Both the position numbers and the translations under genes were made by a program. Source: a virus. From it: a stretch of 37,396 bases of DNA. The notes beneath the pieces were generated by a model. The model had not been told where the DNA came from. It searched no databases and saw only the letters and a list, made by a program, of their open reading frames with translations. Position 1 is the first letter of the stretch; every line of letters starts with the position of its first letter. This document shows, piece by piece, positions 11,189 through 22,289 of this stretch. The stretch spans positions 1 to 37,396 of the IMG/VR virus record IMGVR_UViG_3300047496_000026. One strand, 5' to 3'.

Positions 11189-11481
11189 GCGTTGCGCCGA
11201 ATGTACTCTTTGCGAGCATCCGCTGCCGTCTTCTTCGCCCCGGTGAGGTGGTACCCCTCCGGTGGGTAGTAGGAAACGAACAGGATTTCCCCGGTGAGCT
11301 TGTTGAGCGCACGCACCTTGAGCATGTTGCAGTTGCGACATGCATGGGCGAACCGGATGACCGTCTTCGAGTTCGGGTACTTCTGCCCCTTCGAGTCGTC
11401 GTCTTCGACACGGAACCATGAGTGCCGGTCGATGGAGCGACAGGCAACGTAGTTGTCGGGGAGTTGCGAGAGGGTAGTCAC
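11185..11481 (-). CDS. 98-aa actinophage-type small protein with CxxC
   Basis: The 98-residue protein shows DRHSWFRVEDDD, HACRNCNMLKVR, then TGEILFVSYYPPEGYHL and a basic C-terminus. The order His-Trp, CxxC, TGE, YPPGY-like matches a family of small DNA-associated proteins I recall from actinophages; function is unknown. It starts at GTG overlapping the zinc-finger gene stop (GTGA). Confidence 0.65.
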   Translation of the reverse strand: MTTLSQLPDNYVACRSIDRHSWFRVEDDDSKGQKYPNSKTVIRFAHACRNCNMLKVRALNKLTGEILFVSYYPPEGYHLTGAKKTAADARKEYIRRNA

Positions 11482-11777
11482 TTGGCCACCTTCCGACGAC
11501 GGACAGTGACCTTGCTGTGGCTCTTCTTGTGCATCCCCAACGCCTGTGCCCGAGTGAACGAGCGGGTGCAGCCGGGTTCATCACAGGCCCACAGTCCGAC
11601 GACCTTATCCTTGTCGGGAGTCATCTGCGAGTAGAGAGCGATGAGCTTGTTGATCTGCGTCTTCGCTGCCTTGGCTTGTGAGGCAGCGTTGATGATTTCG
11701 TCAAGCCTCTCTCGCTCTGCCATGAGGGTTTCGATGGACATGAGATTGTCCAACACTGACTTTGAGGGTGACATCAC
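11478..11777 (-). CDS. 99-aa protein with C-terminal C2H2 zinc finger
   Basis: The N-terminal helix pair (residues 5-50, AERERLDEIINAASQAKAAK) probably dimerises. A classical C2H2 finger (WACDEPGCTRSFTRAQALGMHKK, C-x4-C-x12-H-x4-H form) follows near 63-88 and a very basic tail ends the protein. This is likely a DNA-binding protein. AAGGAG lies five bases before GTG 11777 (GTGA overlap) or eight before ATG 11774 (TGATG). Confidence 0.7.
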   Translation of the reverse strand: MMSPSKSVLDNLMSIETLMAERERLDEIINAASQAKAAKTQINKLIALYSQMTPDKDKVVGLWACDEPGCTRSFTRAQALGMHKKSHSKVTVRRRKVAK

Positions 11778-12724
11778 TTCTTCTCCTTGATAGTGATATG
11801 AGTTCCCTCCCCCTGAATGTAGTAGTCATCCAGTGGGAGGTTTGCTTCCGTTAGTAGCTCCTTCACTTTCTGCGTATCCATACGCTTAGGGTTGTTGACA
11901 ATAGAAACTGTAGCAGTCTCGCCGACGAAGGTTGTGCCGCCGTCGTCAGGAAGGCCGTCCGCAATGAGGTCAGCGAGTACCTTCTTGGCTTTGGCGAAGG
12001 CTGCTGCCTTACGGGAGGCAAGTAGGTAGTTGTTAACCAAAGCGGTGAGGGCTTCGGGAAGTTGGTCGGGAGTTTTGACATCATGGAGATAGTCATACGG
12101 GCATCCCCAAGAGGCATCACACTGGACAGTCGTAATGTCGTAGTGTGCAGCGGCGAGTTCTTCGATTTCGTAGACACGGGCCTGAATGTCGTCGTAGCTG
12201 TAGGGGTGGGTTTCATAGACCTTGACGGTCAGTTGCTTGGTGTCTTTGTTGTAGAGCGGGAGGCAGAACTTGTTGACACCGAAACCTTCACAGTACGCTG
12301 ACTGCTGCCATGCGTAGTGGGGGAACGCCAGTATTCCATCCGCAAGGAACGAGTCCATCGTTGACTGTGCGAAAGCCTTAGCGTCAACTGGCATATAGTG
12401 AGTCCCGCCAGGGGGCGTCCCGAGGGCATCAACGTGGCCGACAACGTATAGTTCCCGCCCGTCAGGGCCGGAACCAAGGTGGAGTTCCATTGACGCTTGG
12501 TTGGAGCCACTTTCTAGAGTCCACCCGTAGTTAGTTTCGAGAAGGGCAAGGATGGTTGGTTCGAGTTCGTGGCCTCTCGCAAAAGCCTGTTGAAGTCTTG
12601 CTGGGGGAGGTTTGGGGTCGTAGCCCAATCGGGCAGCGAGAAGCCTGCGTTTACAGCCGCCGAGGGCAGAGGCCCGGTAAAGTACTTTGCCGTCACTAAC
12701 TGCGACTGTTGGGGCGTCTGACAT
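11774..12724 (-). CDS. RecB/Cas4-like PD-(D/E)xK nuclease
   Basis: A 316-residue exonuclease by motif: YRASALGGCKRRLL at 16-29 with a conserved Cys24, RGHELEPTILALL at 50-62, the catalytic GHVDALG (Asp99) and VDAK (Asp114, Lys116), and YAWQQSAYCEGFGV near 137-150. A later CDASWGCPYDY could supply further cysteines for an Fe-S cluster as in Cas4, but the spacing is not a clear match. AAGGAG lies eight bases before the ATG. The first 211 bases overlap the upstream zinc protein gene in another frame. Confidence 0.8.
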   Translation of the reverse strand: MSDAPTVAVSDGKVLYRASALGGCKRRLLAARLGYDPKPPPARLQQAFARGHELEPTILALLETNYGWTLESGSNQASMELHLGSGPDGRELYVVGHVDALGTPPGGTHYMPVDAKAFAQSTMDSFLADGILAFPHYAWQQSAYCEGFGVNKFCLPLYNKDTKQLTVKVYETHPYSYDDIQARVYEIEELAAAHYDITTVQCDASWGCPYDYLHDVKTPDQLPEALTALVNNYLLASRKAAAFAKAKKVLADLIADGLPDDGGTTFVGETATVSIVNNPKRMDTQKVKELLTEANLPLDDYYIQGEGTHITIKEKK

Positions 12725-13495: not shown

Positions 13496-14278
13496 CTAGG
13501 CTTGTGCGAGGGGCCAGATGCCCGACGCCTCATCGGCTACTTGCACGGCCAGTTCCTCATCAGCGAGAACGTCAGCCCTAGCGAATGCTGCCGCCATGAA
13601 CTCCTGGTAGGAGGACGAGGCTTTCGCCAGTTGGATCATCTCTTGGAACAGAGGTGATCCGTTAGCTGCCGGTGCCGCTTGGGCCTTGGCCTGCTGCACC
13701 AACTCTAGTGGAGTGAGGGAAGGGGGAGCAACTGGTGCTGTGGGGGTCGGTGGGACCACGGGTGGCTGGAAGCCGGGAGCAGCTTGTGGAGAAGCTGTGG
13801 ACAATGGGGCACTCTCTGTGGACAACCCGAGATACTTAGTGGGGAGAAGTCGCTCCTGCGGGTCCACGTTCTTGCCGAAAGAAATGGTAACGAGGTCCAG
13901 GTGCATCTTTACCCCGACCCAAATGTCGGCGGTGAGCGGGTTGCCCCGGTCGAACATTACGTCCCGTAGCGTTTGCCCATCCACCACGTCTTCGAGTTCC
14001 ACGGCCCTAGCAATGAAGTGCCCGTAGATACTGTTCTTGTTGATGCGCTTCTTGGTGGGATGCACGATGGTCTTGCCGCCATCGGCAGAGGTCCAGTCGC
14101 CACCGACCGACATGCGAAGCTCTGCTGGCTCGCCATCCTCGTCGGAGCCGGTGAGGAAGAGAAGGTAGACCCGCCCGCCCTGGTAGTCCTGTGAGGTGCC
14201 GAAGTAGGCCAGGTGGATTTCGAGGTCCATTGTCTCTCGAAGGCCAGAGTCTAGCTTCCATTCGTCTGCGTATGTCAT
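13496..14278 (-). CDS. conserved phage protein, possible single-strand DNA-binding or recombination factor
   Basis: The 260-residue protein starts MTYADEWKLDSGLRETMDL, continues with a beta-rich domain (GGRVYLLFLTGSDEDGEP, LRMSVGGDWTSADGGK, KKRINKNSIYGHFIARA, IWVGVKMHLDLVTISF, PTKYLG) to about residue 155, then a Pro-rich linker and a helical C-terminus. Acidic and Pro-rich tails after a beta domain occur in single-strand DNA-binding proteins. I recall related proteins next to recombinases in actinophages, but their function is not known to me. Confidence 0.65.
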   Translation of the reverse strand: MTYADEWKLDSGLRETMDLEIHLAYFGTSQDYQGGRVYLLFLTGSDEDGEPAELRMSVGGDWTSADGGKTIVHPTKKRINKNSIYGHFIARAVELEDVVDGQTLRDVMFDRGNPLTADIWVGVKMHLDLVTISFGKNVDPQERLLPTKYLGLSTESAPLSTASPQAAPGFQPPVVPPTPTAPVAPPSLTPLELVQQAKAQAAPAANGSPLFQEMIQLAKASSSYQEFMAAAFARADVLADEELAVQVADEASGIWPLAQA

Positions 14279-14290
14279 GGTAATGCCTTT

Positions 14291-14914
14291 CTATAGTGGA
14301 GGTTGTCTGAGGTCTATTGCGTCCTTCCACCACTGAGGTAGAAGATTCTTGTGTCGCCGCCAAATCTGCGTCATAAATGAGGCGTCTAGTATGTAGCTCT
14401 CGCAGAAGTCGTCTTCGGAGCGCATACCCCGACCAGTCATCTGTACTAGTGACCGGACGGTTTTAACGGAGTACCAAAGTTGCCCCCCTTCGGAGTAGAG
14501 TTTGGCTGCGATCTGCTTATCGCCAAGAGAGGGGAAAGGGATTTTACAGACCACGATGACCCGGCAGTCATTGCCGGGAAGGTCGATTCCACGATCAAGT
14601 GACGGTGCCAGTAGTACCGACGAATCCTTGTAGACATAACGGTCAATGGCTCGTTGCTTCTCCTGGGTACTGTTGTAAGTGACCAACCGTGGCCCCGCAA
14701 GGTGACCCGCCAGGTAGCGGTTGAGATCATATGAAACTGTGTGGACAAGGATGCGGTCGTCGGGGTGTCTGGCAACCACCTTGTTAAGTGCCTCTGCAAC
14801 CAACGGGTAGGCAGCATCCTTGTTCTTCCTTGTCATCTCGGCGATTGAGTGGACGTAGATAGGGCGACGTTCGGGTGGGAACGATGAGGGTACGACTACT
14901 GTTGAGTAGTTCAT
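14291..14914 (-). CDS. DinG/XPD-type helicase, C-terminal RecA domain (separate cistron)
   Basis: A 207-residue second helicase domain: SSFPPERRPIYVH near residue 10, LVHTVSYD for motif IV, a motif V region VLLAPSLDRGIDLPG near 100, and motif VI LVQMTGRGMRSEDD near 155 with the Q..GR..R pattern. It lacks the nucleotide-binding half, which is two cistrons upstream. ATG 14914 overlaps the zinc-finger gene stop (ATGA). The same frame upstream of this ATG still reads VPDLYHWR, which looks like helicase text. It must pair with the N-terminal half to work. Confidence 0.85.
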   Translation of the reverse strand: MNYSTVVVPSSFPPERRPIYVHSIAEMTRKNKDAAYPLVAEALNKVVARHPDDRILVHTVSYDLNRYLAGHLAGPRLVTYNSTQEKQRAIDRYVYKDSSVLLAPSLDRGIDLPGNDCRVIVVCKIPFPSLGDKQIAAKLYSEGGQLWYSVKTVRSLVQMTGRGMRSEDDFCESYILDASFMTQIWRRHKNLLPQWWKDAIDLRQPPL

Positions 14915-15096
14915 ACGCCAGTGATAGAGGTCGGGTACATCTTCGGGTCGGGCATATGCGTGCCCTGGTAGTGGCGTGAGTAACGCTCGTAGGCATACTC
15001 GGGCTGATCGACGTGGAACTTGGGTGATATCCACGGGCAGTTCTTCTCGGGGCAGGAGTAGAGTGCGATCTTGTCGTCGGCAGGAAAATCGGTCAC
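14911..15096 (-). CDS. 61-aa C2H2-like zinc-finger protein between the helicase halves
   Basis: This small protein has CPEKNCPWISPKF followed by YERYSRHYQGTH, a C-x4-C...H-x4-H pattern. Its GTG start overlaps the stop of the helicase N-half (15093-15096), and its stop overlaps the start of the C-half (14911-14914), so all three are one coupled unit. It could be a bridging subunit or DNA-binding partner, or an inserted small gene that broke the helicase. Confidence 0.7.
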   Translation of the reverse strand: MTDFPADDKIALYSCPEKNCPWISPKFHVDQPEYAYERYSRHYQGTHMPDPKMYPTSITGV

Positions 15097-16070
15097 AGGT
15101 CGATGCCTAGCGTCTTCGCCATCACGTCGAAGGAAATAGTGGTGGCTGACATAAGGAGGAATCGGGGGGAGTGCTTCCAGATGTACTCTCCTGCGAGGTG
15201 GTTGACGTTGATGGGCTTAAAACTAATGTTACCGTGATCGTATCCGGTATAGACCCACCCTCCTGCTGCCAGTCCAGTTGTAGGGTCGTTGAGTCTTTTG
15301 ATGTTTCCACGGAGTCGGTTAAGAGTGTTGCGACTTCGTATAGCACTGACACTATCTCCTGCAACTCTGTGCTTTGATAGGCGGTTCTCCGCATCCAAGG
15401 CCCATTCGACCCAGGCAGATTCAACAGTCTTCCGAGTAGGGGGCTTGATTCCATATTCGTCTGCCTTCCGTTGGGTAACAGATACTTCGACAAAGGACAT
15501 GAGGGTATCTTCGAGAGTGTCGGCTTCGTCTATGATGATGAGCTTCCGGGCCAGAGGCAGATTACCGACGTAGTTTGCTTCATACAGGAAGTAGGAAGTG
15601 TTTGTGCATACCAAACTGGACCTAATAGCGTTTGCCTTTGCCATCTCATACGGACAGTCCTTAACAGGATGACACCACTTACAGTGCATCCCTTCGTCTT
15701 CGTCAGGGTTCGGATCACAGTCGAAACATGCGGGTAGTACGGTCCGTTCCTTGGCGCAGTCTCCTGCATTGAGTTCGGGGAACTTAGATGGCGAATCGAA
15801 CGTGGCATAGTTCGTGCGACCTTTCAGTAGGGCAGCAGTGGGGAAGTCACGGCAGAACTGGTCCTGTAGGGCGATACTGTTGCAGAGGTAGAGCGCACGG
15901 CAGTCCAGGTACTGTCGGACGAGTTCACCGATGAGGGTCTTGCCGGAACCGGTAGGTGCGTCTAGAAGTACGACCTTGGAACCGGAGTTGAATGCAGAGA
16001 GGGCTTGCTGGACGGCGACGATCTGATGAGGGCGTGGGGTGGTGGCCCACTCGGGCAGAGTGATGGTCAC
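15093..16070 (-). CDS. DinG/XPD-type Fe-S helicase, N-terminal RecA domain (separate cistron)
   Basis: A 325-residue ATP-binding half of a superfamily 2 helicase. Motif I DAPTGSGKTLIG lies near 38-49, followed by a cysteine-rich Fe-S-type insert (ACFDCDPNPDEDEGMHCKWC...DCPYE, about 115-150). Motif II IIIDEADTLED is near 185 and motif III LLMSATTIS near 305. The protein stops at TLGIDL, just where the second RecA domain should begin. A GTG start overlaps the previous stop (GTGA). A full helicase of this type would be about 530 residues, matching the two halves together. Confidence 0.85.
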   Translation of the reverse strand: MTITLPEWATTPRPHQIVAVQQALSAFNSGSKVVLLDAPTGSGKTLIGELVRQYLDCRALYLCNSIALQDQFCRDFPTAALLKGRTNYATFDSPSKFPELNAGDCAKERTVLPACFDCDPNPDEDEGMHCKWCHPVKDCPYEMAKANAIRSSLVCTNTSYFLYEANYVGNLPLARKLIIIDEADTLEDTLMSFVEVSVTQRKADEYGIKPPTRKTVESAWVEWALDAENRLSKHRVAGDSVSAIRSRNTLNRLRGNIKRLNDPTTGLAAGGWVYTGYDHGNISFKPINVNHLAGEYIWKHSPRFLLMSATTISFDVMAKTLGIDL

Positions 16071-17774: not shown

Positions 17775-20700
17775 TTAGTATTTAGGTGATTTGAGGTCGG
17801 GGGTGACCGCTTGGACGGAGCCACCTCCCAATCCTCCGATTGATGCATTTGTAACGTTGTAAAGGTTGATGAGGTCTTGGGCCGAGATACTGTAGTCGGC
17901 ATTGCGAGGGTCGGGAACGTTAGCGTACCCGGCGAGTTGGGAAGGGTCGCCCGAGGTCCAGAAGTTAGACGCTGCCTTCTTCGCCTGGTTGTAGCGGTCA
18001 AGTTCGTTCGTGCCCGCTATCTGCTTGAGGTTGAGGTGCTGCGGCATCCACGGGAAGCCGAGGGACTCGAAGACCTTTTTGATGTAGGCGTTGCGATCGC
18101 CCTTTTGCAGATAGGCATACTGGCCGGACAGGTTCAGGGCAGAGTCCAGAGCCGAGACTTCGGGCACGATGCCTTCGAGGGTGCCGAGGGGAGTGCCCTG
18201 TGGGTTGGCCTCGTTGCTGCCGTAGATATCCGAGTAGGAGATGTTCGGGTACAGGACGTTCGTGCCGAAGGTGATGTTCGGGTCTACCGAGGCGAATGGG
18301 GCGGTGAGGACAGGGTTGAGGCCAGAGAGCCAGCCCGAGATGCCGAAGTAGGAGGCTGTGTCACGGAGTGGGTTGGCGGCTCGCATGTCGATGGCTGAAA
18401 CGTTACCGGACTGATCCGGGTTCCCCAAGAAGAACAGTAGCTGGCTTCTGAGGGGTAGACCCTCTGGCTGCTCTTGGGCAGAGATTCGAGACATCTGCGA
18501 CAGGAACATTGCACGGTACGGGTGGTCGCCTGGGTATTGAAGAACGTAGTGGAGGACGTGATTTGACCAGGCCCAGAACGGGAACGCCCTTGTGAGGTAG
18601 TTGAACTCTATCGGGGTCATGTTGCGGACATCGCCCATTACCCGCTCGGTGTGCTGCATGGCCTCATCCATCGCCTGCTGCGGGGTCATGTCGTGCTTGA
18701 CTCGAACTGTCTTGCCTAGTTCCTCATCGAAGGTGTCAACGTAGAACGAGTCCTTCTTGGCGGCGTGGTGCAGGCCGTCTAGGAAGGCGATAGACCGTTG
18801 GAGGTTGGTAGAGAACCGGGTGATGCGGTAGTTGAACTCGGGAACGACCTTGAGCCAGTGGGTGAGGAAGTCGGGATGCTTGAGGTCGGCGGCGTCCTTG
18901 CCGAACAGTTGTGCTATGCGGGCTTGGATGGCGAACTGTGCAGCACTGTGCCCCATAGCGTGTTGGAGGACGATATCGGCGTCGCCTTCCTGAGTTGAGT
19001 TGTGCGTGTAGAGCTTGTCGGTCGTGATGTCTTCTACGACGTGCTGACCGGCGATCTTGGTCAGGATATCTTCGGGGATAGTCTCGCCACGGGTGAACGC
19101 CTTGGTCATGCGCCACGCATCGCCGATGTGCAGGAGGGCGGCGGGAGATGACTTACCGGCGAGCATCATCGTACCGCCGAGAACGATGTGGGCAGTGAAC
19201 CGTGGCGAGTACCCGAGGATGCTGGTTCGGAAGACGCCTGTGGCCTTGTCGTAGCCCTTGATGAATGCGTTGTTGCTGCCGACCTTCTGGAAGGACTTGG
19301 TTAGCCCGTCCAGAATGTGCCCGTCGATTAGTGTTTCCCCCTTGCCTAGAACAGATGGGTTACCAGTGGAGAAGATCGACGTTGGATCGTAGGACTGCAA
19401 GTTCCACTCTGCGAGTTTGTCGTTGACGAACGAGATGTAGTCGGCAGTACGAGCGCCACTCTCGTCGGGGATAATGCCACGTTCCCGCATCTCGTCCACG
19501 AAGTTCATGCGGATAAGGTGTTCGAGGTCGGACCGGTTGTAGAGGAACTGGCCCATGTCCTTGTTCTGGAACTCTATTTCGTGGTCCCGCACTACGGCTT
19601 CGTGGACGGCCTTGTTCATGCCCGCCTGGAAGTTGTAGATCGTACCGTGGGCAGTGTCCATCGCCTTCTCGAAGGTGGACTGTTGGCGGCGAATGGAGGT
19701 CTTGCCGATAGTGATGTTGTAGAGTTCGGCACCGGTACCTTCGATGCGGTCGTGAGGGTGGAGGGTGGCCAGGTACAGTGGCTTCATGCCCTGCTGACGG
19801 AGAGAGAATATTTGTTCTTCGATGCCCTTGTTGATTTCGGCAGCTACTTCGGAGTCCACGTTGGGCAGGACATGGTTCTCGTAAGACATGATGGCCGACA
19901 GCCCGCCCATCTCAATGATGATCTGCGGGTTCTCTTGGAGGGTCTTCAAGTCTGTCTCGGACATGCCCTGTTGACGGAGATGGGATACAGCCTCTTGTAC
20001 AACTCGCTTACCCTCTTCGTGGGCGATGAGTTGCCGGTCGAACTCTATCTTCTTGTAGTTGTCCCACACGGCAGGTGGGTTGTGGACCGAGGCGTCAAGG
20101 AATGCCTTGTTGGCTTCTTCTACTTGTGCAGCTAGTTCGGCGAGAGAGTTCTTCTTGGCTACTAGGAACCGAGAGCCACGGGTAACAGTCTCCTTAGTAG
20201 TGAGTGTTCCCTTCTTGGTCTTCTTAGTTACTGTCTTCTCGCCGGTCCATAGTGAGTGGAGCTTCTGCGTAACGTTGGCCCGAGTCCTGGCGTACTTGTA
20301 TAGGCCATCGACCATAGCGTTGAGTTGGGCCAGTTGGGCAGAGCGAGTCGGGGAGTTGAGGGTCTTCGTGTTGAACTTGTCGTGGGCGACCTGGGTAATA
20401 GCCCGTAGCTTCTCCCAATCCTGGGCGTCGAATGCTTCGACAGCCTGGTCGATGATGCCTCCCTTGGAGACAAGATCGGAGATGACCTGTGCCGTCTGTG
20501 CGGAGACAGGGGCGTGGACCCGCACATCTCGAACGTCGTTGGTTATGCGGAGTCTCTTGATGGCGAGCTTGGTGACCTGTGCTTTGGTGGGATTGATTTC
20601 CGTGCCGGGGTTAGCCCGTCGCAACTCGTACTGTAGGGTCTTGTATGCCTCGTCATAGGCTGTCTTCTCAACAGTTGACCATTGGGTACGGTCACCGGAG

Positions 20701-22289
20701 TATGGCTCTGCTTCGTGGGTGCCGCCACGGTAGACCCTCTGTTCGGTGTGCTCGTCTAGCCCAAGGAACGTTTCGAGGTTCTTCTTGTTGGCCTGGGCTA
20801 CCTGTGTCTTCTTGCCACGGCCCAACACCCCTGGCTTCTTGTCACCGGGGAGAGCTTCGGTCAGCTTGTCGTATGCCGGGTTGCCCTGTGCGATGTCGGG
20901 GAGAGAGTCTGCAATAGCGTCGTGGACGAAGGCCCGAAACTTGGAGACTTGATCGAAGAACCGCATCATAATGGCATCGACCTCGGAGGTCTTGTCCATT
21001 AGCTCGTTGGCCTGGTGGGCGGCAGCCTCGAATCTCTGCTGTAGCCGTTCCATGTTGGCAGCAGCTACTTCGACATCTCTAGCTCTGGAACCGGGACCGA
21101 GAAGGTAGATTTCTGGACCTGCTTTCGTCATCACCGCCTTCAACTCGCCAGCAGCGAGCGACTGTTGCGTGATGAAGTGATCTAGTTGGATCGTCTGTTC
21201 GATGGCATCCTTCTGTTCGGGTGTGAACCGAGGATCGTCCAGAATAACGTTATCGGGGCGGAAGTCCGTGATGTGGTACTCAGTAGTGAGGTACTGGTTG
21301 GTGGCGAGAGTTTGCTCCTTCGAGAGCTTGCCCCACGCCTGGTTGAATGGCCGCAGTATGGCGATCTTCTGCCGCATACCCACCTGTTCGTGGACACGGA
21401 TGGCCTTGTTGATTTGGGCCTGCTCGGCACCAGCACCGAAGTGAGTTCGGAGGTCGGACACGAACTCGCCGATGGTCTGCTGTGCGTACTTAGGAGTGAT
21501 GACACCTTCTGCGGTGGGCACGTTAAGCCCGAGTCGCTTCTCTCCACCACCGAGTGCCTTGGGGAGCTTGGCGTTCTTGGTGATCTTCCAGGCGAGTTGC
21601 CCTGCCGACATGCCCTTTAGTTCTTCGGTAGTGACACCGGCACGGGCGGCTGTCTCGGCGGCGAAGTCCCCACCGACACGGGACACTAGGCCACCGGAGA
21701 GCTTACCAATGGGTAGCACGTCCAAGATGGTCGTGATCGGGCTAGTGGCCATGTGCTTGAGGCCAGCCTTGCCCTGTGTGAGATAGCTGGCGTCGATGAC
21801 ACCGGGGACGAAGGCTAGAGCGTTGTGGTTACCCTGCACGATGCTGGCGAAAGCGTTGGCATCCTGTGTCCGCTTGGCCGAGTTGAACAGATCAACAGTG
21901 TTCTCCTTGGCCACGTCGAAGAGGGGCTGGGCAATCTCCCCCATCGGGTGTTCGACGGTGTTGGTTACCGTGTCAAAGATGTTCTTGACGACCGAGATTG
22001 GGTTGAGTCCCGTGAACACCTGCCAGGCGTTGTGCTGCACGTTACCGATAACGTTAGTCGGCGAGGGGTTGTCCTGGGGAACCTGGGTCAGCCCCATCCC
22101 GGCAGCGGTGAGGACTTCCCGAGTCCTCGCACCCTGCGACATAGCGTTGCCGTGCTGTAGAAGGTTCGAGGCGTCCTTCTGATAGATGGGCAGGTAGCTA
22201 GACGGCTTGATACCCTGCGACTGCGCCCATGCGACAGTCTTCTGCCAGTCGGTTTGGAACGACTGATAGCGGGTGGACGAAGAGGCCAT
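17775..22289 (-). CDS. 1504-aa probable ejection (internal virion) protein
   Basis: The largest gene of the genome. It is Gln/Lys/Glu-rich with long helical stretches (for example about residues 410-470 and 780-880) and a hydrophobic, aromatic C-terminal third (NYLTRAFPFWAWSNHVLHYV near 1240, then LFFLGNPDQ). Such giant proteins, next to smaller Ala/Gln-rich proteins and after the head-tail adaptor, are typical internal or ejection proteins of podoviruses; a polyvalent-protein domain (LPD38-like) in the C-terminal part is possible. It has no tape-measure-like repeats. It starts at ATG sharing one base with the previous stop. Confidence 0.65.
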   Translation of the reverse strand: MASSSTRYQSFQTDWQKTVAWAQSQGIKPSSYLPIYQKDASNLLQHGNAMSQGARTREVLTAAGMGLTQVPQDNPSPTNVIGNVQHNAWQVFTGLNPISVVKNIFDTVTNTVEHPMGEIAQPLFDVAKENTVDLFNSAKRTQDANAFASIVQGNHNALAFVPGVIDASYLTQGKAGLKHMATSPITTILDVLPIGKLSGGLVSRVGGDFAAETAARAGVTTEELKGMSAGQLAWKITKNAKLPKALGGGEKRLGLNVPTAEGVITPKYAQQTIGEFVSDLRTHFGAGAEQAQINKAIRVHEQVGMRQKIAILRPFNQAWGKLSKEQTLATNQYLTTEYHITDFRPDNVILDDPRFTPEQKDAIEQTIQLDHFITQQSLAAGELKAVMTKAGPEIYLLGPGSRARDVEVAAANMERLQQRFEAAAHQANELMDKTSEVDAIMMRFFDQVSKFRAFVHDAIADSLPDIAQGNPAYDKLTEALPGDKKPGVLGRGKKTQVAQANKKNLETFLGLDEHTEQRVYRGGTHEAEPYSGDRTQWSTVEKTAYDEAYKTLQYELRRANPGTEINPTKAQVTKLAIKRLRITNDVRDVRVHAPVSAQTAQVISDLVSKGGIIDQAVEAFDAQDWEKLRAITQVAHDKFNTKTLNSPTRSAQLAQLNAMVDGLYKYARTRANVTQKLHSLWTGEKTVTKKTKKGTLTTKETVTRGSRFLVAKKNSLAELAAQVEEANKAFLDASVHNPPAVWDNYKKIEFDRQLIAHEEGKRVVQEAVSHLRQQGMSETDLKTLQENPQIIIEMGGLSAIMSYENHVLPNVDSEVAAEINKGIEEQIFSLRQQGMKPLYLATLHPHDRIEGTGAELYNITIGKTSIRRQQSTFEKAMDTAHGTIYNFQAGMNKAVHEAVVRDHEIEFQNKDMGQFLYNRSDLEHLIRMNFVDEMRERGIIPDESGARTADYISFVNDKLAEWNLQSYDPTSIFSTGNPSVLGKGETLIDGHILDGLTKSFQKVGSNNAFIKGYDKATGVFRTSILGYSPRFTAHIVLGGTMMLAGKSSPAALLHIGDAWRMTKAFTRGETIPEDILTKIAGQHVVEDITTDKLYTHNSTQEGDADIVLQHAMGHSAAQFAIQARIAQLFGKDAADLKHPDFLTHWLKVVPEFNYRITRFSTNLQRSIAFLDGLHHAAKKDSFYVDTFDEELGKTVRVKHDMTPQQAMDEAMQHTERVMGDVRNMTPIEFNYLTRAFPFWAWSNHVLHYVLQYPGDHPYRAMFLSQMSRISAQEQPEGLPLRSQLLFFLGNPDQSGNVSAIDMRAANPLRDTASYFGISGWLSGLNPVLTAPFASVDPNITFGTNVLYPNISYSDIYGSNEANPQGTPLGTLEGIVPEVSALDSALNLSGQYAYLQKGDRNAYIKKVFESLGFPWMPQHLNLKQIAGTNELDRYNQAKKAASNFWTSGDPSQLAGYANVPDPRNADYSISAQDLINLYNVTNASIGGLGGGSVQAVTPDLKSPKY

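Follow-up and report, generated by a model that had tools for sequence, protein, structure and literature searches.

An XPD/DinG-family helicase encoded as two lobes in a lineage of uncultured tailed phages

A group of virus contigs encodes an XPD/DinG-type helicase as two separate genes, which are divided at the same position, lie in a syntenic operon, are both under constraint and form a single clade. We consider it probable (roughly 0.83) that a single event in the ancestor of this lineage divided the helicase at the linker joining its two RecA lobes, that the separate lobes reassociate, and that the small gene lying between them in the locus studied here was inserted later.

The helicase locus and its products

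The analyzed DNA (the window), 37,396 bases long, is an entire linear virus record from IMG/VR and includes portal and terminase genes. No close cultured relative was found for the portal, and only distant cultured relatives for the terminase. The features of the helicase locus are as follows.

15093-16070 (-), N-half of the split XPD/DinG-type helicase, 325 aa, RecA lobe 1 with Fe-S and Arch insertions (ORF; phrog_2488, Pfam and PDB profile matches to XPD/DinG)
15933-15962 (-), motif I (Walker A), DAPTGSGKTL, residues 37-46, near-invariant in 11 relatives
15654-15758 (-), four-cysteine Fe-S cluster region (C105, C130, C133, C139), invariant in split and single-chain relatives
15519-15530 (-), motif II, DEAD, residues 181-184 of the N-half, conserved in 11 relatives
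15141-15149 (-), motif III, SAT, residues 308-310 of the N-half (alignment of relatives)
14911-15096 (-), 61-aa Cys/His-rich ORF at the junction (ORF, codon usage), without relatives found
14291-14914 (-), C-half of the split helicase, 207 aa, RecA lobe 2, ATG at 14914 (ORF, Helicase_C_2, phrog_2488)
14579-14599 (-), motif V, LDRGIDL, in the C-half (alignment of relatives)
14420-14443 (-), motif VI with its arginine residues, QMTGRGMR, in the C-half (alignment of relatives)
13496-14278 (-), conserved neighbor of 260 aa ("SSB-like" as a working label only), syntenic in split and single-chain relatives
11774-12724 (-), Cas4/RecE-like nuclease of the same operon, syntenic in split and single-chain relatives

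The three ORFs at the junction, their coordinates and frames and both four-base overlaps are exactly as an earlier note on this DNA had described them. The N-half terminates with TLGIDL and a TGA stop, and its end shares GTGA (15096-15093) with the start of the 61-aa ORF, which in turn shares ATGA (14914-14911) with the start of the C-half. The N-terminal sequence of the C-half is MNYSTVVVPSSF. Such overlaps are ordinary within the helicase operon, and the N-half and its own upstream gene also have four bases in common (16067-16070).

The N-half matched the profile phrog_2488 (579 positions) from position 18 onward (2.6e-38), and the C-half matched its positions 377-576 (8.3e-42). In Pfam, the halves matched DEAD_2/ResIII and Helicase_C_2, the latter with 6e-21 for the C-half, and in a PDB profile search the N-half and the C-half matched complementary parts of XPD/DinG structures. 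The complementary phrog_2488 and Pfam matches and the retention of all motifs bear out the previous description of the locus as an XPD/DinG-type helicase in two cistrons. C115 and C118, in the same region of the N-half, vary among relatives; just four of the six cysteines are invariant, in agreement with one predicted Fe-S cluster. All motifs, the four invariant cysteines and the predicted fold are shared with the XPD/DinG (Rad3-related) Fe-S family (phrog_2488; PDB 9p55, 4a15, 6fwr), of which the split protein is, by sequence and predicted fold, a member.

The fold was predicted with AlphaFold2 on a read-through of the relative L002, in which the halves share a frame and the stop was read through, using an alignment with 21 single-chain relatives. 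The model reached a pLDDT of 89.1 and a pTM of 0.89, and the sole stretch below 50 was 331-336, at the junction, where the low confidence is partly due to gaps in the alignment. In a Foldseek search with this model, a proxy for the chains of the window, XPD and DinG ranked first (E about 1e-22). The joined L002 sequence is predicted to adopt the XPD/DinG fold, the break falling in a loop; because the model was built on a single-chain alignment, it speaks for compatibility of fold and not for association in trans.

Among the neighbors of the split helicase, the 260-aa protein, the Cas4/RecE-like nuclease and a Sak4-like protein suggest a role in recombination or replication. The nuclease gene is adjoined by a 99-aa ORF with a C2H2 zinc finger (11478-11777, (-); Pfam zf-C2H2_6, 1.6e-5). 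Elsewhere in the window, a 1504-aa ORF (17775-22289, (-)) had no PHROG match, and its seeming homolog, recognized by eye, lies upstream of the helicase in the relative L005 (66-2657). The other strand from that of the helicase operon encodes an ATPase matching phrog_249, which is annotated as porphyrin biosynthesis, followed by a phrog_1909 protein (388-2594, (+)).

Divided and undivided relatives

IMG/VR was scanned with both halves and their alignments, and the matching contigs were sorted by whether lobes 1 and 2 lie in one stop-to-stop frame. Ten contigs carry the split form (the window, L001, L002, L003, L004, L005, L011, L012, L117, and L119), and about 110 distinct contigs carry a single chain, including the syntenic orthologs L013, L014, and L015. 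The relatives are metagenome contigs throughout, with some samples shared (3300047160 by three, 3300021560 by two). A search for relatives with the same split, which the earlier note had proposed as a check, thus yielded nine further IMG/VR contigs divided in the same place: in every case the split falls right after LG(I/L/V) and ahead of the lobe 2 strand VxVPSTF. At this point the linker of the single-chain relatives comprises a few residues only.

A tree of 45 concatenated helicases groups the ten split rows in one clade (support 100/97; 99/96 in an earlier tree with fewer rows), which adjoins the single-chain L015/L040, and the split or single state changes once in 200 of 200 bootstrap trees. 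Since the split helicases form a single clade, the data need just one split event. One origin followed by long maintenance through deep divergence is the simplest reading of the sequences. The closest relative of the window is L003 (76% identity).

Matches in cultured phages were distant, mostly under 35% identity, and by coordinate arithmetic the N and C matches lie in one frame in Tunturi_5, Vibrio 207E48.1, Bacillus phage G, and vir080. The search of bacterial genomes returned no prophage relative, only short N-terminal matches (motif I region) to other helicases.

Some features are peculiar to certain single-chain relatives. Seven of them (L013:260-2263, L014:5671-7557, L028, L029, L035, L042, and L045) possess an N-terminal region with a SWIM-like motif CxC...CxH (e.g., CSCQGHQGGEYRKICSH), for which the Pfam SWIM match in L013 is below the cut-off (E 0.059); neither the N-halves of the split clade nor L015 have this region. 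Intein-sized inserts are present at motif VI in L040:4926-7403 (weak Pfam Intein_splicing match, 0.0013), at motif VI and near Walker A in L148:998-4249, and near Walker A in L141:1-2682.

Both halves of the split helicase are, as judged from substitution rates, under strong purifying selection. Between the window and L003, dN was 0.22 and dS 1.33 for the N-half, and dN was 0.18 with dS saturated for the C-half; over the pairs tested, dN ranged from 0.18 to 0.33 for both halves, while dS was above 1.3 or saturated.

The junction and the two-chain reading

The junctions of the ten split contigs are arranged as follows.

L001 and L011: ATGA overlap, no gene between the halves
L003: TTGA overlap, no gene between
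L002: TAA, 6 nt, ATG, with the halves in the same frame, no gene between
L117 (3881-4013): C frame overlapping the N-half end by about 79 nt, no gene between
Window: 61-aa ORF
L004: 46-aa Cys/His-rich ORF
L005: three ORFs, two of them Cys/His-rich
L012: 81-aa Cys-rich ORF, overlapping the C-half
L119: 92-aa ORF without zinc-type motifs

The 79-nt overlap in L117 might represent an early stage or a variant of the split, or else an error in the contig. The C-half starts with a codon other than ATG in some members, namely TTG in L003 and GTG in L005 and L119, and its expression in these is predicted.

The codon usage of the 61-aa ORF (+0.52 bits per codon) is within the in-frame range, which indicates a real gene. 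Its description as a C2H2 protein could not be upheld, as no Pfam or PHROG match was found and the spacing C-x4-C-x21-H-x4-H is not canonical for this class. Folded alone as a single sequence, the protein reached a pLDDT of 50, and no homologs were found in viral contigs, in phages (chance tail-fiber matches only) or in the fetched loci. The earlier note had moreover regarded VPDLYHWR, upstream of the C-half ATG, as helicase-like text left over from an ancestral gene. Frame-specific codon usage speaks against this, the upstream frame scoring -0.46, as out-of-frame DNA does; the stretch also lies beyond the bounds of the helicase profile and is at odds with the short linkers of the single-chain relatives. 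The letters arise when the small gene is read in the wrong frame.

Further candidates for the junction were considered and rejected. An intron is not indicated, as the window has no Rfam match and no tRNA, and the insert of about 180 nt is coding. A split intein is contradicted by the absence of extra sequence at the N-half end and the C-half start of the window, both ends being helicase sequence, and the inteins or intein-sized inserts of single-chain relatives sit at motif VI or near Walker A, away from the split. No homing endonuclease was recognizable, either in the junction ORF of the window, which lacks Pfam and PHROG matches, or in the ORFs of the other members, which were read by eye.

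The suggestion that the small gene had opened an ancestral single gene is not supported, since five of the ten genomes (L001, L002, L003, L011, and L117) have the same split with no gene at the junction, and the junction genes of the other members are mostly unrelated to the 61-aa ORF. The earlier note also considered a three-subunit helicase plausible; if such an enzyme were obligate, the 61-aa protein would serve as a structural subunit that bridges the lobes. That the gene is coding and overlaps both halves by four bases agrees with such a role, as do the Cys/His-rich small genes at the junctions of L004, L005, and L012. We nevertheless regard it as unlikely and prefer two subunits, because the split occurs without a junction gene, even in the closest relative of the window. 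In addition, the other junction genes are not homologous to that of the window, and the ORF of L119 and one of those in L005 are not Cys/His-rich. The zinc-type ORF of L004 has its homolog in L001 (57%, 1e-14) upstream of the N-half instead. With this homolog located elsewhere and the window ORF without homologs in the fetched loci, the junction genes look secondary and mobile. Similar small genes also occur elsewhere in the operon, such as the zf-C2H2_6 ORF described above, and the presence of zinc-type genes at the junction therefore calls for no explanation of its own. The 61-aa gene is best seen as having been inserted later, at a site that gains and loses small genes; its product may have an accessory role but would not be an obligate subunit.

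The ATP site of superfamily 2 helicases lies between the two lobes, lobe 1 contributing Walker A/B and lobe 2 the motif VI arginines. According to the two-chain reading, a single division of the Fe-S helicase in the phage ancestor would have separated RecA lobe 1, which carries the Fe-S and Arch insertions, from RecA lobe 2 at the linker. One operon would then supply the lobes as separate polypeptides, in many cases through termination-reinitiation where stop and start codons overlap, and the lobes would associate non-covalently to form a DNA channel and a composite ATP site with Walker A/B on one chain and the motif VI arginines on the other. In 10 of 10 contigs the two chains are encoded in constant order in one operon, and each retains its own set of ATP-site residues. 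The halves therefore probably reassemble physically, and they would then act as a helicase.

Recoding by frameshift, readthrough or ribosome bypass, which would join the halves into one chain, is very improbable. L002, with its halves in the same frame and separated by a single TAA and 6 nt, and L117, with its overlapping frames, would lend themselves to it. However, relative frames and spacing vary between the members, whole genes separate the halves in the window, L004, L005, L012, and L119, and the junctions that were read have no common slippery site. The junctions differ (ATGA, TTGA, a 6-nt gap after TAA, a 79-nt overlap, one to three genes), and no single recoding mechanism or sequencing error can account for them all.

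We likewise give little credence to separate functions of the two halves, as would be the case if, say, the N-half were a DNA-binding ATPase and the C-half did something else. The halves are indeed separate products, but motifs V and VI of the C-half are useful only against an apposed lobe 1 and are conserved like Walker A/B, and the constant order within one operon also argues against it. A pseudogene or a sequencing or assembly error, although a frequent source of split genes, is the least credible explanation given ten contigs of one clade with different junction DNA, dN far below dS in both halves and all motifs kept, and the previous view that the locus is not just a product of decay was supported.

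More speculatively, assembly of the ATP site could be regulated by the supply of the lobes or by junction-encoded small proteins, the junction being a site at which small genes of the zinc type settle.

Superfamily 2 helicases couple their two RecA lobes via a covalent linker. A lineage that has lost this linker yet retained the enzyme would offer a natural experiment on the linker's importance in coupling ATP hydrolysis to movement. A ready split-helicase tool would follow. The lineage further shows that a gene split can stay stable over deep divergence, and that the junction can then gather small genes.

Comparison with known split systems

In fractured genes with split inteins, the gene of an enzyme is broken in two and a further gene lies between the parts. 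The phage helicase locus shares the two pieces and the gene between, but has no intein fragments. From the known members of the XPD/DinG family, the phage helicase differs in being made of two polypeptides cut between the RecA lobes. We found no report in the open-access literature of an XPD/DinG helicase cut in this way, and the word "split" is absent from a 2025 review of bacterial DinG-like proteins (PMC11981726).

Reverse gyrase is naturally split in Nanoarchaeum and Methanopyrus (PMC6878951). Like the phage helicase, it is a helicase-containing enzyme made as separate chains, but it is archaeal and has a topoisomerase part. YprA-like helicases are split into several genes in some defense systems (PMC12458937); the distribution over several cistrons is alike, but that helicase family is a different one, and its context is defense.

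A parallel in layout is provided by phage genes-in-pieces such as Aeh1 nrdA, which is split by mobE, and the Aeromonas phage DNA polymerase 43A/43B (PMC2988022). In these an enzyme is encoded in two cistrons, between which a free gene or spacer may intervene, and the products reassemble, as the halves of the phage helicase probably do. The present case concerns a helicase, its junction genes are short and for the most part Cys/His-rich, and no homing endonuclease is recognizable, such an endonuclease being typical of, although not universal in, genes-in-pieces. Like these systems, the phage helicase has two cistrons where relatives have one, and it would be a new case of genes-in-pieces without a recognizable endonuclease.
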